A stretch of 64,000 nt of DNA. Source: Woeseiaceae bacterium (GTDB lineage Bacteria; Pseudomonadota; Gammaproteobacteria; Steroidobacterales; Woeseiaceae). This document shows, one piece after another, positions 7,383 through 58,131 of the stretch. The notes under the pieces are model-generated. The model worked only from the letters and a program-made list of their open reading frames with translations. It searched no databases and was not told where the DNA came from. The position numbers were made by a program, and so were the translations under genes. The stretch spans positions 1 to 64,000 of the forward strand of contig JASJCQ010000020.1 in NCBI GenBank assembly GCA_030065915.1, in the 5' to 3' direction. How positions within the stretch are numbered: the first letter of the stretch is position 1; every line of letters starts with the position of its first letter.

Positions 7383-7925
7383 ATGGCTGCTGTAGCTCCA
7401 ATCCAATCCCGCTTGCATCACAACGCGCATGTCTGCACAGACATGGAGGCGGTTCGCGAGTTCTACGAAGACATCATCGGGTTCCCGCTGACTGCGACCT
7501 GGTGCGAGCAGACCGACCTGTTCGGCAAGGTCCGCACGTACATGCACTGCTTCTTCGACATTGGAAACGGCGAGAGTCTCGCGTTCTTCCAGTTCGCAGA
7601 CGAGGAGGATTCGAAGGAATTCGGGCCTGAGCTGCCGTTGTCGGGTTTTCGTCACCTGGCAATGAAGGTCGACCAGGAAACGCAAGACGGCATTCGCGAC
7701 CGCCTGGCGGCCGCCGGCATCGAAGCGCCGCAGACCTACATCCTGAATCATGGTTACTGTTACTCGCTGTACGTCTTCGATCCGGCCAATCTGTTGATCG
7801 AATTCACTGTCGATCATGACGACGTCGACCAGATTAACGACGACAAGAAAAAGACTGCGCATGAAGACCTCAAACGTTGGCTCGCCGGTGACCATTCGCC
7901 CAACAACGAAGCGTTCCACCGCTAA
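7383..7925 (+). CDS. VOC-superfamily (glyoxalase/extradiol dioxygenase fold) protein
   Basis: A 180-aa protein with one pair of beta-alpha-beta-beta-beta modules of the vicinal-oxygen-chelate fold. Candidate metal ligands are H13 or H16 near the N terminus, the His in GFRHLAMKV and the Glu in NLLIEFTVD, which fits the His-His-Glu set used by extradiol dioxygenases and related enzymes. The C-terminal tail is charged. It lies 21 nt after the TonB receptor with its own GGAG ribosome site. Ring cleavage, isomerisation or thiol-adduct chemistry are all possible for this fold, and the exact reaction is unknown. Confidence 0.82.
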   Translation: MAAVAPIQSRLHHNAHVCTDMEAVREFYEDIIGFPLTATWCEQTDLFGKVRTYMHCFFDIGNGESLAFFQFADEEDSKEFGPELPLSGFRHLAMKVDQETQDGIRDRLAAAGIEAPQTYILNHGYCYSLYVFDPANLLIEFTVDHDDVDQINDDKKKTAHEDLKRWLAGDHSPNNEAFHR

Positions 7926-33760: not shown

Positions 33761-35038
33761 TCACCCGCCCGAAGATAGTCGCGTCTCGTCGCTTGCGACG
33801 ACGCGCTGCGGCATCACTGGATCGAGCTCGTCCAATTCGAGTCGATCGATGATCGCCGGTATCTGTTTCTTTAACTTGAAGTAGCCACGCTGGGCATGCG
33901 GCCAGGTTTCCCGGTCGTATCGACGGCTGAGCTGAATGATGCGGATGCCGTAACGTGACAGCGTATGCGATGCGACCGCCAAAGCGTCAGCGACAGGCCC
34001 TACCGGGGGCATTGCCGTAACGATCGCGTTCACGTGATGTTGGGTCGCCCACTCGGCCAGGTTCTCTGACCAGTCGTCGGCTTCAAAGTAACCGGTCTCC
34101 ACGTTGAAAAGACGCCCGGCTCGATCAACGGCGTCTCTGATAGCACTGGAAGAGAAATTGAACGCTTCGATGCCGACGGGCAGGCTGGAGCGATTTCGTA
34201 TGGCGAGCCCACCCGTCACAGCGGACGGCCTGAGTTGCGCTGCTAGCGATTCCGCATAGCAATCGTCTTCGGTGATCAGCAGACCGCATCTCTCGGTCGG
34301 AAGTGGCTCATCCCGAAATTCGAGTGCCTGCGGCTCATACTCCACGTCTTCCGTCAGCGGCTCGGCGGTCATCGACAACCCTTGTGGGTTAAATCGACCG
34401 TCCGTGTAGTTGACGATGTTCGATACGCGGGCGAGGTAGGTCTTGCCTTTGGTGTGCAGTCCGCTGACCCAGCGCCAACTTAGCGTGTTGGAGGCCGGAT
34501 CGCCGTCGACAAGGTGGCGCAGGAAAAAATCGGCGCCGAGCTGCCAAGGCAATTTCAGCGTGAAAACCCAGATACTCGCGAACCACATCCGTGCGTGGTT
34601 ATGCAGATAGCCGGTCTCGACCAGCTCGCGCGACCAGGCGTCGAAGCAGTCAATTCCGGTATTGCCGCCGACAGCGGCGTTGTATCGATCGAGCAGTTCG
34701 TTACCGGCTTCGAGCGCAGCGACCAGCGCGTCGACGCTGCGCCGGTAATCCGCCCACACAGCGGGACGATGCTGCAGCCAGCCTTTGAAATAGGCGCGCC
34801 AGAAGACTTCCTCGAGGAATTTTGCGACGTGGCCGGCTGAGTGACTTGCGAGCGTCTGAGCGATAACTTCCTGCTCAAGGATCAGTCGATGTCTGATGTA
34901 CGGTGACAACACGGACACATTCGCGTGATTGCCCGGGCCGAAGTCGAAATTCCGCGATTTCGCGTACTGCCTGACGCCGTGGTGGACGAAAGCCTCAGTC
35001 CGCTCCAGCCCGGCTTCTCGTGTCGCGGTCACGGTCAT
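33761..35038 (-). CDS. Photolyase/cryptochrome-like FAD protein with permuted domains
   Basis: A 425-aa protein. Residues ~1-225 match the photolyase FAD domain: LSPYIRHRLI, EEVFWRAYFKGW, TGIDCFDAWSRELVETGYLHNHARMW (split here for length: TGIDCFDAW, then ELVETGYLHNHARMW) and the DGDPASNTLSWRWVSG segment. Residues ~250-400 form an alpha/beta domain ending in RYDRETWPHAQRGYFKLK, a pattern that in photolyases closes the N-terminal antenna domain. The order FAD-domain first is the reverse of the normal one. It shares the operon of the HiPIP gene. Light sensing or DNA repair are both possible. Confidence 0.8.
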   Translation of the reverse strand: MTVTATREAGLERTEAFVHHGVRQYAKSRNFDFGPGNHANVSVLSPYIRHRLILEQEVIAQTLASHSAGHVAKFLEEVFWRAYFKGWLQHRPAVWADYRRSVDALVAALEAGNELLDRYNAAVGGNTGIDCFDAWSRELVETGYLHNHARMWFASIWVFTLKLPWQLGADFFLRHLVDGDPASNTLSWRWVSGLHTKGKTYLARVSNIVNYTDGRFNPQGLSMTAEPLTEDVEYEPQALEFRDEPLPTERCGLLITEDDCYAESLAAQLRPSAVTGGLAIRNRSSLPVGIEAFNFSSSAIRDAVDRAGRLFNVETGYFEADDWSENLAEWATQHHVNAIVTAMPPVGPVADALAVASHTLSRYGIRIIQLSRRYDRETWPHAQRGYFKLKKQIPAIIDRLELDELDPVMPQRVVASDETRLSSGG

Positions 35039-35793: not shown

Positions 35794-36792
35794 TCAAATG
35801 TCGAGTTTTTCGAACTCAACCACCTTCTTCAGCGCAGTCTCAATAGTCGCGCGGGCCTGCGCCGTCGTGTAATGCAGGTACCGATGCAGCGCCGCGTCTT
35901 CTTCGTTTCGGTTCGCGCACTGCGAGCTGTAGATTTCGAAGGCCGTCAGATCGGTGACCAGCGACGCCAGGTGATGAGGACATTCGCAATCGATGGCCGA
36001 TGTGATCTTGCTCAGTCTCGCCAGCTGTTGTTGCGTGTAGTGCCGGGCGGGAATCTCGCCTGTCGCCGGCCATTCAGCGCCCCCGCCATCGATCTCGGTC
36101 TCTTCATTGCGTGGCGCGATCGTTACGTTCTCGGAGGCGGCGCGCATTAACAGTGACCGCAGCTGATCGACGTCGGCCGGTGACCGCACGACGATAATTC
36201 CAAGGTCTTTCGCCCGATCGACGTCCTGCGATGTGCCGAACTTGTATAACGCCATGGCTGCACGGGCGCCGGACACGCGCACATACTCCGTCAGCCTCTG
36301 AATCGCTGGCTGATCGAGCACCGGGCACTCGACAATGATGTAGTCCAGCGACTGGTGGCCTATGTCGATGCCGAAACGCGTTGCGTCGTTGTCCGTCGCG
36401 ACGATATTGAGCGGAGTAATCTGCCGATTGTGCTCGAGGAATTGCACGGGCAGGAAGTCGCCCAGCACAGCAACCCGTATCTCTTCCGGCGGCGTGCCCG
36501 CACCGATTTCTCCCATGTTCCGGGCGCGCTCTCGCAGTTCTGAAAGGCTGTGTCCGGCGATCTGACTGATTCCGATTCCCTGGTCGGTGAGCCGTTTCAG
36601 CAGCGCCAGCTTTTCAACGTCATCCTTCGAATACAGGCGACGGCCGGTATCGGAACGGTCCGCCACGATAGCCGAATAGCGGCGTTCCCAGACGCGAATC
36701 GTGTGGTCGGTCAGGCCTGTCATCTTGGACACCGCGCCTATGCCATAGCTGTCCATTTTCTCTGCTTTCACTTTCCTGGCGATCTCCGGCAC
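35794..36792 (-). CDS. MerR-family regulator with divergent sensor domain
   Basis: A 332-aa regulator. The N-terminal MerR HTH is clear (GIGAVSKMTGLTDHTIRVW, then RRLYSKDDVEKLALLKRL). Residues ~105-225 form a Rossmann-like domain placed where CarH/LitR carry a B12 domain, but neither the W-x9-EH motif nor DxHxxG is visible. A third part (about 260-330) has a CECPHHL cluster, a C in SSQCANRN and a conserved helix, which might bind a metal or cofactor. GTG at 36792 is one start; ATG at 36756 fits equally well. It sits between hip and the PGC and divergent from a DUF4149 gene. Confidence 0.82.
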   Translation of the reverse strand: MPEIARKVKAEKMDSYGIGAVSKMTGLTDHTIRVWERRYSAIVADRSDTGRRLYSKDDVEKLALLKRLTDQGIGISQIAGHSLSELRERARNMGEIGAGTPPEEIRVAVLGDFLPVQFLEHNRQITPLNIVATDNDATRFGIDIGHQSLDYIIVECPVLDQPAIQRLTEYVRVSGARAAMALYKFGTSQDVDRAKDLGIIVVRSPADVDQLRSLLMRAASENVTIAPRNEETEIDGGGAEWPATGEIPARHYTQQQLARLSKITSAIDCECPHHLASLVTDLTAFEIYSSQCANRNEEDAALHRYLHYTTAQARATIETALKKVVEFEKLDI

Positions 36793-55151: not shown

Positions 55152-55910
55152 ATGTCCAGCGGACTAGCAAATATTGATCTTGTAGAAGTCTTATTCACCC
55201 TGTTCTGGGTGTTCTTTATCGGGCTCGTCTTGTACCTGCACCGAGAGTCGAAACGGGAAGGGTATCCTCTCGTTTCGGACCGGTCTGAGCACGTCACCGT
55301 CCAGGGCTTTCCGTCAATGCCTGCCCCAAAGACGTATCACGTCGAAGGCGGGCGGACGGTGCAGGCGCCACGACCGGAAGCGCCGGATGAGGATTTCCGA
55401 GCGGAGCCGGCCGCATCGAATCCAGGCGCGCCATTAAACCCGACGGGCGACCCGCTTTCTGCCAGATTCGGGCCCGGCGCCTACAGCAATCGGCCGGATA
55501 TCGTCGAGAAGACACTCGAGGGCACGCCGCGAATCGTCCCACTGCGCGCTGCTCCTTCGTTCCATGTCGATGAGAAAGACATCGATCCCCGGGGCATGCC
55601 GGTTGTCGCTGCCGACGGCAAGAAGGTCGGCGATGTCAGCGACGTCTGGGTCGATCTCGCAGAACCGCAGATCTATTACATCGAAGTAGCCGCTGCCGAT
55701 GGCAGCAAGATTGTCCCGTTCGGATTTGCGGACATCGACAAGGGCAACAGCCAGATCAAGGTGAACGCGATCTATAGCCACCAGTTCGCCAACGTGCCAC
55801 AGCTCTCGTCTCCCGACCAGATTACCATGCTGGAGGAGGACAAGATCTCGGGCTACTTCGGTGCCGGTCTGTTGTTTGCCGATGACAAACGCGGGGAGCC
55901 GTTGTTTTGA
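55152..55910 (+). CDS. puhA: Reaction-centre H subunit PuhA
   Basis: A 252-aa H protein with one N-terminal transmembrane helix (about 11-30, VLFTLFWVFFIGLVLYLH) followed by the RESKREGYPL stretch and a cytoplasmic beta-rich PRC-barrel domain (about 150-240, with GKKVGDVSDVWVD). It stabilises the reaction centre and shapes the proton path to QB. A GGAGG site precedes the ATG. Its stop overlaps the fused puhBC start. Confidence 0.95.
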   Translation: MSSGLANIDLVEVLFTLFWVFFIGLVLYLHRESKREGYPLVSDRSEHVTVQGFPSMPAPKTYHVEGGRTVQAPRPEAPDEDFRAEPAASNPGAPLNPTGDPLSARFGPGAYSNRPDIVEKTLEGTPRIVPLRAAPSFHVDEKDIDPRGMPVVAADGKKVGDVSDVWVDLAEPQIYYIEVAAADGSKIVPFGFADIDKGNSQIKVNAIYSHQFANVPQLSSPDQITMLEEDKISGYFGAGLLFADDKRGEPLF

Positions 55911-57076
55911 ATCCAATGCACGAACATGATGATGAGCCAGTAGTCGGCCTGCCACAGGAATTGCCGGAGGGTGAACGAATCCTCTGGCAGGGTCGTTCGG
56001 AGTTCTCGAGTCTCGCGCTCACGACAATGCATATCCGCAAGGTTGCCGTCTACTTTGCGGCCTTGTTGGCTCTGCGAATAGCGCTCGCGTTGAAGGACGG
56101 CCAAGCGTTAATCGATGCCGTCTCTGGTTCGATCGTTCTGCTGGTGCTGGCCGTTGTGGCGATCGGCTTGCTGGCCTACTACGCACAGCGAGCGGCCGCG
56201 GCGACGATGTTTACGATCACGAACCAGCGCGTTGTCATGCGATGCGGCGTCGCGGTCTCCGTAACGGTAAACCTGCCGTTTGCGATCATCGACGCTGCCG
56301 ATCTCAGGCTGCACAAGGATGGGAGCGGCGACATTTCGATTAGGACAGATCGAAGTTCGCGCGCGTCCTACGTGCTGCTGTGGCCGATGGTTAAACCGTT
56401 CCGCTGGTTCGACGTCAGGCCCGTCTTGCGTGGCATCAGGAACGCCGAGTCTGTCGCAAAGACGCTGGCAACGGCCCTGGCTGACTACGCAGCAGACGCT
56501 GCAGCGCGGCCAGTGTCAGACCCGTCGACAGACGATAGCGCACCGGCGCCGCGCCGCGGCTGGTCGCTGCATCCACCGCTGGCTGCGGCGTCCGCCCTGA
56601 TCGTATTCGCGATCGTGGCTGTGTCGATGTATCAGCTATCGGATCGTGGCAACGGCGACTTGTTGCTCGAGCCTGCCATCGAATCCGTTGACCTGTGGTT
56701 CGAAGACCAGGAAGGCGGGGCCGTCACGGTCATCGATGCGAATAGCGGACGGGTCGTGGACGTAGTAGCACCCGAGACGAACGGTTTCTTGAGGGGTGCT
56801 CTGAGGAGTCTCGCGCGCGAGCGCCGGGCTTCAGACATCGGTTCCGAGATTCCTTTCTCGGTTCGAAAGATGGCGTCCGGGTCCATCGTGCTGCACGACC
56901 CGGCCACGGGGCGCGTTATCGACCTCCGGGCTTTCGGTCCAACCAACCAGGAGGCCTTCGCACGATTTTTAGAAATTTCAGCGAAAGACCAGATAGCAGA
57001 CGGGGGTCCGTCTGAAGCAGACGCTGCGGAAACAGGGGTAGCCGCGGTAGCGCTGACTCAACAGGAGACGAAATAG
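55907..57076 (+). CDS. Fused PuhB-PuhC photosynthetic complex assembly protein
   Basis: A 389-aa single frame that joins two normally separate proteins. Residues 1-205 match PuhB: a short N-terminal segment, two transmembrane helices (about 44-63, 74-92) and a PH-like domain ([15 protein letters not shown], then [10 protein letters not shown]). A Pro/Asp linker (202-217) leads to residues 218-360, which match PuhC: one membrane anchor (about 222-245) and a periplasmic domain with the [16 protein letters not shown] and [15 protein letters not shown] motifs. PuhB helps reaction-centre assembly and PuhC helps LH1/RC organisation. TTG at 55907 overlaps the puhA stop; ATG 55916 is an alternative. 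Confidence 0.9.
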
Positions 57077-58131
57077 TGACTACGGATACGCGAACGAACA
57101 CGTCTACGACGAAGGCGACTACAGAAACGCTGCTCACGCCGCGTTTCTATCGCACCGACTTCGACGCCATGGACAAGCTCGATATGGAACCCATTCGACA
57201 GGAGTGGGAAGACCTCATGGACGAGTTCCGTGACGACAACAACCAGAACCACTTCAAACGCGACGACAGTTTCGAGAGTGAGATTAAGGAGCTGTCGCCT
57301 GAGCTCTACAAGGAGTTCATGGACTTCCTCGTATCGTCTGCGACGTCCGAGTACTCAGGTCATGTGCTCTACGCCGACATAAAGAAGGCTGTCAAGAACG
57401 AAGACGTGCGTGAAGTGATGGGCTACATGGCGCGGGATGAGTCCCGTCATGCCGGCTTTATCAACCAGTCACTGAAGGACTTCAACGTTCCGGTAAACCT
57501 CGGTTTCCTTCGTAAAGCGAAGAAGTACACGTATTTCCGGCCGAAGTTCATTTTCTACGCGACTTATCTGTCGGAGAAGATCGGCTACGCACGCTACATT
57601 ACGATCTACCGTCACCTCGAGCGCCATCCAGAGAAGCGTTTTCACCCGATCTTCCGCTGGTTCCAGGACTGGTGTAACGACGAGTTCCGCCATGGAGAAG
57701 TCTTCGCGCTCATCATGAAGGCGAATCCGAAATTACTGCGCGGCCACAACCTGCTGTGGATTCGCTTCTTCCTGCTCGCAGTCTACGCGACGATGTACGT
57801 TCGCGATCATACGCGACCGGCCATGCACGAGGCGCTCGGTTTCGATCCGACCGATTACGACAAGCGGGTTTTGTCGCTGACGACAGAGATTAGCCGACAG
57901 ATCTTCCCCGTGTCGCTGAATCTCGAAGACGAACGTTTCTGGAAGGGCATGGACAAGCTCGTTGCCATCAATGAGAAAACGCTGGCGGCTAAAAAACGAG
58001 GAGGGGTCGCAGGATTGGTCAGGCGAGCGGGACTGTCAGTGCAAGGTGCGCTCGTCTTTGCCCGGTTGTACACCCTGCCAGTCGTGAGACACGAAATCCC
58101 GAGCAACGTTCGACTGGCACCGACCTGGTAA
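57076..58131 (+). CDS. acsF: Aerobic Mg-protoporphyrin ester cyclase AcsF
   Basis: A 351-aa diiron oxygenase that closes the isocyclic ring of bacteriochlorophyll with O2. The diiron ligands are visible as DESRHAGF and DEFRHGEVF, with a further Glu in [10 protein letters not shown]. The GTG start shares one base with the puhBC stop (TAGTG). No bchE is seen in the window, so ring closure here depends on oxygen, consistent with an aerobic phototroph. Confidence 0.96.

Follow-up and report, generated by a model that had tools for sequence, protein, structure and literature searches.

The stretch of DNA analysed here (64,000 nucleotides from a Woeseiaceae bacterium, referred to hereafter as the window) carries a single open frame on its forward strand at 55907–57076, which begins with TTG, ends with TAG and encodes a fused PuhB-PuhC protein of 389 amino acids. 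The gene directly upstream, puhA (reaction-centre H subunit, RC-H; 55152–55910, + strand; TIGR01150, 308.5 bits against a cut-off of 200), ends in a TGA that overlaps the TTG start at 55907. A putative ribosome-binding site (GGGGAG, 55893–55898, + strand) was recognized by its anti-Shine–Dalgarno duplex, with energies of −7.3 kcal/mol for the TTG at 55907 versus −1.9 kcal/mol for an ATG at 55916. The overlap with puhA reads TTGA in six of the eight genomes of the genus that carry the fusion, GTGA in one and CTGA in one, and the ATG at the second start position (55916 in the window) is absent from three of these eight. On the downstream side, acsF (57076–58131, + strand; TIGR02029, 484 bits against a cut-off of 192.5) begins at a GTG overlapping the TAG of the fusion gene and has a ribosome-binding site of its own (−7.4 kcal/mol). 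Family searches placed bchP, bchG, ppsR, bchN, bchB, bchL, bchM, puhE, bchI and bchD in the window along with puhA and acsF; on the same contig, about 10 kb past the end of the window, come pufL and pufM. Three further genes we take to be bchH, lhaA and bchO from gene order; the family search of the window gave no family for the lhaA reading. Beside the photosynthesis genes are genes for a photolyase/cryptochrome-like protein (33764–35035, − strand) and a CarH-like regulator (35800–36792, − strand), both matched far below the curated cut-offs, which could possibly represent light-sensing control.

The original prediction held that complete PuhB-like and PuhC-like parts share this frame, and both NCBIfam profiles bear this out, matching over their curated cut-offs and at near full length. 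The PuhB equivalog NF040894 covers residues 8–178 (55928–56440, + strand; 199.3 bits, E 4.3e-59, cut-off 110; profile positions 5–175 of 176), and the PuhC equivalog TIGR03054 covers residues 223–356 with the membrane helix included (56573–56974, + strand; 140.9 bits, E 3e-41, cut-off 55; profile positions 4–138 of 138). An anti-sigma factor model (E 3) made up the only further NCBIfam row and was taken as chance; in Pfam, bPH_2 (PF03703) matched residues 99–186 (24.8 bits, cut-off 22) and a DUF3675 row fell below its own cut-off. The expected motif is also present in the PuhC part, as NGFLRG at residues 292–297 and RERR at 304–307. In the genome from which the window comes (3.96 Mb in 39 contigs, completeness 99.98%), the PuhB and PuhC profiles each match once, in the fused frame, so there is no spare puhC. 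The PuhB-PuhC fusion is real.

The anatomy of the protein was modelled with AlphaFold2 over its whole length (92-row alignment, mean pLDDT 87.3, pTM 0.62). In the PuhB part, helices 43–63 and 76–99 form a predicted transmembrane hairpin (56033–56203, + strand), modelled in blocks above pLDDT 90 and supported by hydropathy; this leads into a PH-like (bPH_2) domain at residues 99–186 (56201–56464, + strand), assigned by PF03703 and by structural matches to PH domains. The model is beta-rich to about residue 177, continues as a long helix (residues 180–200), and then enters a linker of low confidence and poor conservation (about residues 201–225; 56507–56581, + strand) before the membrane helix of PuhC, the third of the protein (residues 226–247; 56582–56647, + strand; AlphaFold2 and hydropathy), and a second domain at residues 257–365. 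Confidence falls to a pLDDT of 51–55 at residues 211–230 and lies between 51 and 76 over the blocks 201–250 that hold the linker and third helix; the helix itself is at 51–70 in the whole model and is better predicted in a model of PuhC alone (pLDDT 88.0, pTM 0.71). A cruder hydropathy scan gave an additional stretch at residues 110–128 of the window protein, which the model builds as strands. Hydropathy places a helix before PuhC in each of the 10 aligned fused proteins, and lysine plus arginine are more numerous in the 15 residues before the third helix than after it in nine of them (equal in the tenth), a predicted bias that fits a linker on the inside and PuhC on the outside.

Structural comparison of the PuhB part with PH domains gave a modest match (best Z 9.6, rmsd 3.6 over 102 residues), and the matches of the whole model in Foldseek were filled by this PH-like part (best match 3dcx, E 6.6e-3). 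PuhC alone returned no Foldseek match in the PDB at E ≤ 0.001 even though the domain is predicted with high confidence, from which we do not call the fold new, and a phmmer search of the PDB with the fused protein found no sequence relative at E up to 1. Over the eight fused proteins of the genus, mean pairwise identity is 54% for PuhB, 53% for PuhC and 23% for the linker; between the window and one congener (L047), dN and dS are 0.167 and 1.144 for PuhB and 0.229 and 1.249 for PuhC. By these comparisons the PuhB and PuhC parts are equally conserved and the linker is not. The linker had been described as Pro/Asp in character, a description that fails across the genus: it is not specially rich in either residue, but short (32–40 residues in the eight genomes, with no stop inside) and poorly conserved.

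Phototrophy appears patchy in the genus of the window, a group of marine bacteria, with PuhB over cut-off in only 8 of 73 genomes (the window's own included, and many of the 73 being incomplete); our literature search found no publication joining Woeseia with a photosynthesis gene cluster (PGC). In all eight PuhB-positive genomes a single frame holds both PuhB and PuhC, the other seven fusions being 42–68% identical to the window's protein in one comparison and 41–69% in another, and in G006, where a first scan had suggested a TAA, the two parts proved to share a frame with no stop between them. Outside the genus the picture is different (the genus, order, class and phylum samples overlap). 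PuhB was over cut-off in 53 of 396 genomes of the order. Apart from the eight of the genus these number 45, of which 43 are unfused and two (L113 and L134) run off the contig end; the unfused set consists of 42 genomes with separate genes on the stretch and L114, whose PuhB reaches a stop of its own while still on the contig. One of the 42 (G508, locus L103) belongs to the same family as the window but another genus. In the class sample PuhB was over cut-off in 7 of 369 genomes, the six others having separate genes, and in the phylum sample in 31 of 398, with 29 others separate and G836 holding a PuhB frame of 250 amino acids, too short for both parts. Wherever both genes occur at other loci of these samples, puhC is separate (48/48 in order and class together, 29/29 in the phylum). 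The premise that puhB and puhC are usually separate neighbours thus holds across order, class, phylum and wider contigs, and the frame shared by eight genomes is a true fusion of the two; published overviews likewise give puhABC as a conserved gene run (PMC12654162).

Several candidates for additional fusions were discarded. Long PuhB frames had raised suspicion in seven genomes of the order (G600, G602, G736, G743, G714, G751 and G663), each of which has a separate puhC, and the 425-residue frame of G076 is divided by a stop between its two genes. Weak PuhB matches in class and order genomes (about 20–34 bits) are probably generic bPH_2 membrane proteins. Viral contigs contained no relative of the fused protein, and a contig scan using a single fused protein as query likewise returned none. 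Ten plasmid records match the fused query (by annotation, two carry separate puhB and puhC, seven puhB only and one neither), and 11 match the query from locus L185.

When contigs were scanned with the fused alignment, the best 80 of 349 relatives comprised nine fused and 71 separate loci, a split that is not a frequency since the ranking favours same-frame genes. Of the nine, seven belong to Woeseiaceae genomes counted above. The remaining two, L166 (labelled Candidatus Binatia) and L185 (labelled Chromatiaceae), are 58.6% identical to one another over 362 residues and both exceed the PuhB and PuhC cut-offs. Among the genome of L185 (G761) and its relatives (74 genomes), PuhB occurs in 18; the 18 further loci of this group comprise 16 with separate genes, one fused locus (L275, in genome G1237; wider stretch L276) that is over the cut-offs of both families, and one (L266) with no PuhC on the stretch and a PuhB ended by a stop. 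On a different contig, G761 and G1237 each have an ordinary puhB and puhC as well, as separate genes. Among the genome of L166 (G760) and its relatives (78 genomes), PuhB was found in G760 only.

In this second lineage the fused gene sits directly behind pufL and pufM in small pufL-pufM-puhBC cassettes, located at 7406–10470 of L276 (− strand), 683–3843 of L185 and 485–3705 of L166. The L and M subunits of all three look intact. No puhA, pufC or pufBA was recognized beside the cassettes among the subset of neighbouring open reading frames covered (pufBA being sought by eye in short frames), and in L276 seven of nine neighbours could be named by Pfam, none of them tied to a PGC. The surroundings of the L276 cassette include a gene of the beta-carotene 15,15′-dioxygenase family (PF15461; 3734–4933, − strand, about 2.5 kb away), a TonB receptor, a ferritin and a ChaN-type haem protein. 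The cassettes possibly represent an auxiliary minimal reaction centre, or else mis-binned contigs in G760, G761 and G1237.

Phylogeny of the concatenated PuhB and PuhC domains (72 rows, 310 columns, L275 left out) groups the eight Woeseiaceae fusions in one clade (support 100/98) beside the unfused L054 (genome G064) and L103, and places L166 and L185 in another clade (100/100) elsewhere in the tree. Mapping the fusion onto this tree requires two changes. Forcing all ten fused rows into a single clade costs 41 log units and is rejected at p-AU 0.0149, a value to be read knowing that an earlier tree was already at hand when the group was picked and that the AU bootstrap had not settled. With FastTree, PuhB alone and the concatenation agree with this picture, and PuhC alone does not recover the eight rows as a clade. 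The fusion thus appears to have evolved twice, independently.

A stop codon could simply have been lost between two closely spaced, co-translated genes whose topologies happen to fit, giving a fusion in which PuhB and PuhC are not mechanistically connected. Five unfused loci (L055, L063, L065, L107 and L112) do have puhC in the same frame after the puhB stop, and because the genes are neighbours, and in frame in several unfused relatives, a single event can join them. We nevertheless consider such a neutral origin rather unlikely: the fusion is rare (0 of the 43 order genomes outside the genus that allow a decision) yet has been kept in all eight PuhB-positive genomes of the genus, at identities as low as 42%, and it seemingly arose a second time, which does not thereby prove an advantage.

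A further reading accepts the single frame but not the single product, with PuhC made also or mainly from an internal start, or the linker cleaved, such that the fusion would be without functional meaning; the short, poorly conserved linker of low model confidence does resemble a cleavable tether. The original prediction had named a strong internal start near 56540–56560 as a finding that would overturn it, alongside a sequencing error, and none with a ribosome-binding site is there. The closest codon that could serve is a GTG at 56513–56515 (+ strand), the only in-frame ATG, GTG or TTG in the PuhC-start stretch of the window (defined as 10–45 residues before the start of the PuhC profile match), with a duplex energy of −1.4 kcal/mol and no Shine–Dalgarno sequence. 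We compared this stretch between 10 fused loci (the eight of the genus, L166 and L185) and 114 separate loci, counting identical stretches once. It lacks any ATG, GTG or TTG in four of the 10 fused loci (L047, L049, L050 and L166; thus three of the eight in the genus) versus 0/114 separate loci, contains an ATG in 1/10 versus 95/114, and offers a duplex of −5 kcal/mol or stronger in 2/10 (L052 and L185) versus 92/114 (Fisher p 1.7e-4 for the comparison of start signals, the loci being mutually related). A wider count that reaches back into PuhB is less sharp, with such a start in 6/10 fused versus 100/119 separate loci. The start signals of PuhC have mostly been lost in the fused loci.

Individual loci do retain candidates. 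L050 has an ATG with a GGAG site at the PuhC helix (−5.9 kcal/mol), one residue outside the counted stretch, and L052 has a TTG within it (−7.1 kcal/mol), so that internal starts are possible in these two; in the second fused lineage, L185 has GTGs with −5.0 and −5.9 kcal/mol. Set against these are the lone, weak GTG of the window, the empty stretches of L047, L049 and L050, the fact that no start common to all eight fused loci of the genus was seen in their aligned sequences, and the decay of signals that are regular in separate genes. A separate PuhC from an internal start is therefore unlikely in the window, as judged from these signals, and two products from one frame seem improbable overall. 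That the genes were joined by an assembly or sequencing error can be set aside almost completely, for although the seven relatives are metagenome-assembled genomes and some bins share a sample by name (MO_074 twice, PL23b twice), eight genomes with identities down to 42% keep the frame without a stop through linkers varying from 32 to 40 residues, which excludes a sequencing error.

The reading we favour, with a probability of roughly 0.8, is that the fused gene encodes a single membrane protein joining PuhB and PuhC, a reaction-centre assembly factor with three membrane spans. PuhB and PuhC of Rhodobacter capsulatus serve in the assembly of the reaction centre and LH1, and the names of both families state an assembly role (photosynthetic complex putative assembly protein for NF040894, photosynthetic complex assembly protein for TIGR03054). 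The overlap of puhA with the fusion gene suggests that the protein would be made just after RC-H. Following the predicted topology, the N-terminus, the PH-like domain and the linker would lie in the cytoplasm, with the two-helix hairpin anchoring PuhB and the third helix carrying the PuhC domain into the periplasm. The protein would serve reaction-centre/LH1 assembly: the PH-like domain could hold the cytoplasmic face of an assembling centre (RC-H or nascent L/M) while the PuhC domain holds the periplasmic face of the same centre, and the fusion would keep the two in one place at a fixed ratio; the 1:1 stoichiometry foreseen for PuhB and PuhC assumes that the linker stays uncleaved. The fusion would have had a first origin in the ancestor of those members of the Woeseiaceae genus that bear a PGC, where the puhB stop and the puhC start signal were lost, and a second origin in a different lineage.

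That PuhB and PuhC act jointly in one assembly complex, as the original prediction implied, is plausible, and is strengthened by the second, apparently independent fusion and by the compatible predicted topology. More tentatively, at somewhat less than even odds, PuhB and PuhC may together make up, one half each, a single factor that spans the membrane and assembles the L/M core, fused at least twice (in the Woeseiaceae PGC and in a stand-alone pufL-pufM-puhBC cassette outside the main cluster). If so, the cassette would be a minimal reaction-centre unit of two core subunits and one fused builder, with no puhA, pufBA or pufC recognized alongside, and would point to PuhB and PuhC as the helpers on which the L/M core most depends. 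To our knowledge, the assembly of bacterial reaction centres is poorly known; the apparent recurrence of this natural fusion in a second lineage suggests that PuhB and PuhC work as a pair, and the fused protein offers a single-chain version to express, to purify with reaction-centre intermediates and to image.

No PuhB-PuhC fusion is reported in the available text of the literature searched (PMC10576062, PMC11762602, PMC6052148, PMC3338782, PMC10214105, PMC3176799 and PMC12654162), which excludes subscription papers, and where "puhBC" and "puhBCE" were met there they are operon shorthand. On sequence grounds, what we describe is a lineage-wide fusion of two already known assembly-factor families. 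Like PuhB (NF040894), the protein has a full-length profile match, a two-helix hairpin, a bPH_2/PH-like domain and a gene directly behind puhA; it differs in continuing into a linker and a complete PuhC where PuhB has its stop codon. Like PuhC (TIGR03054), it has a full-length match and one predicted membrane helix followed by a globular domain, but this PuhC is without a convincing start or ribosome-binding site of its own, and its N-terminal helix has become the third of a longer protein. For the cassettes of L166, L185 and L275, the nearest parallel is the incomplete pufLMC-puhCBA cluster of Citromicrobium sp. JL354, which also comprises extra reaction-centre genes, together with puhB and puhC, at a site other than the main PGC (PMC3338782); that cluster is listed with puhB and puhC as separate genes and has pufC and puhA, whereas the cassettes have only pufL, pufM and the fused gene as recognized members. 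Finally, the bifunctional reaction centre subunit L/M (NF011075) is, by its name, another natural fusion within the photosynthesis gene set, yet it joins two subunits of the reaction centre, whereas the fused puhB-puhC gene joins two of its assembly factors.
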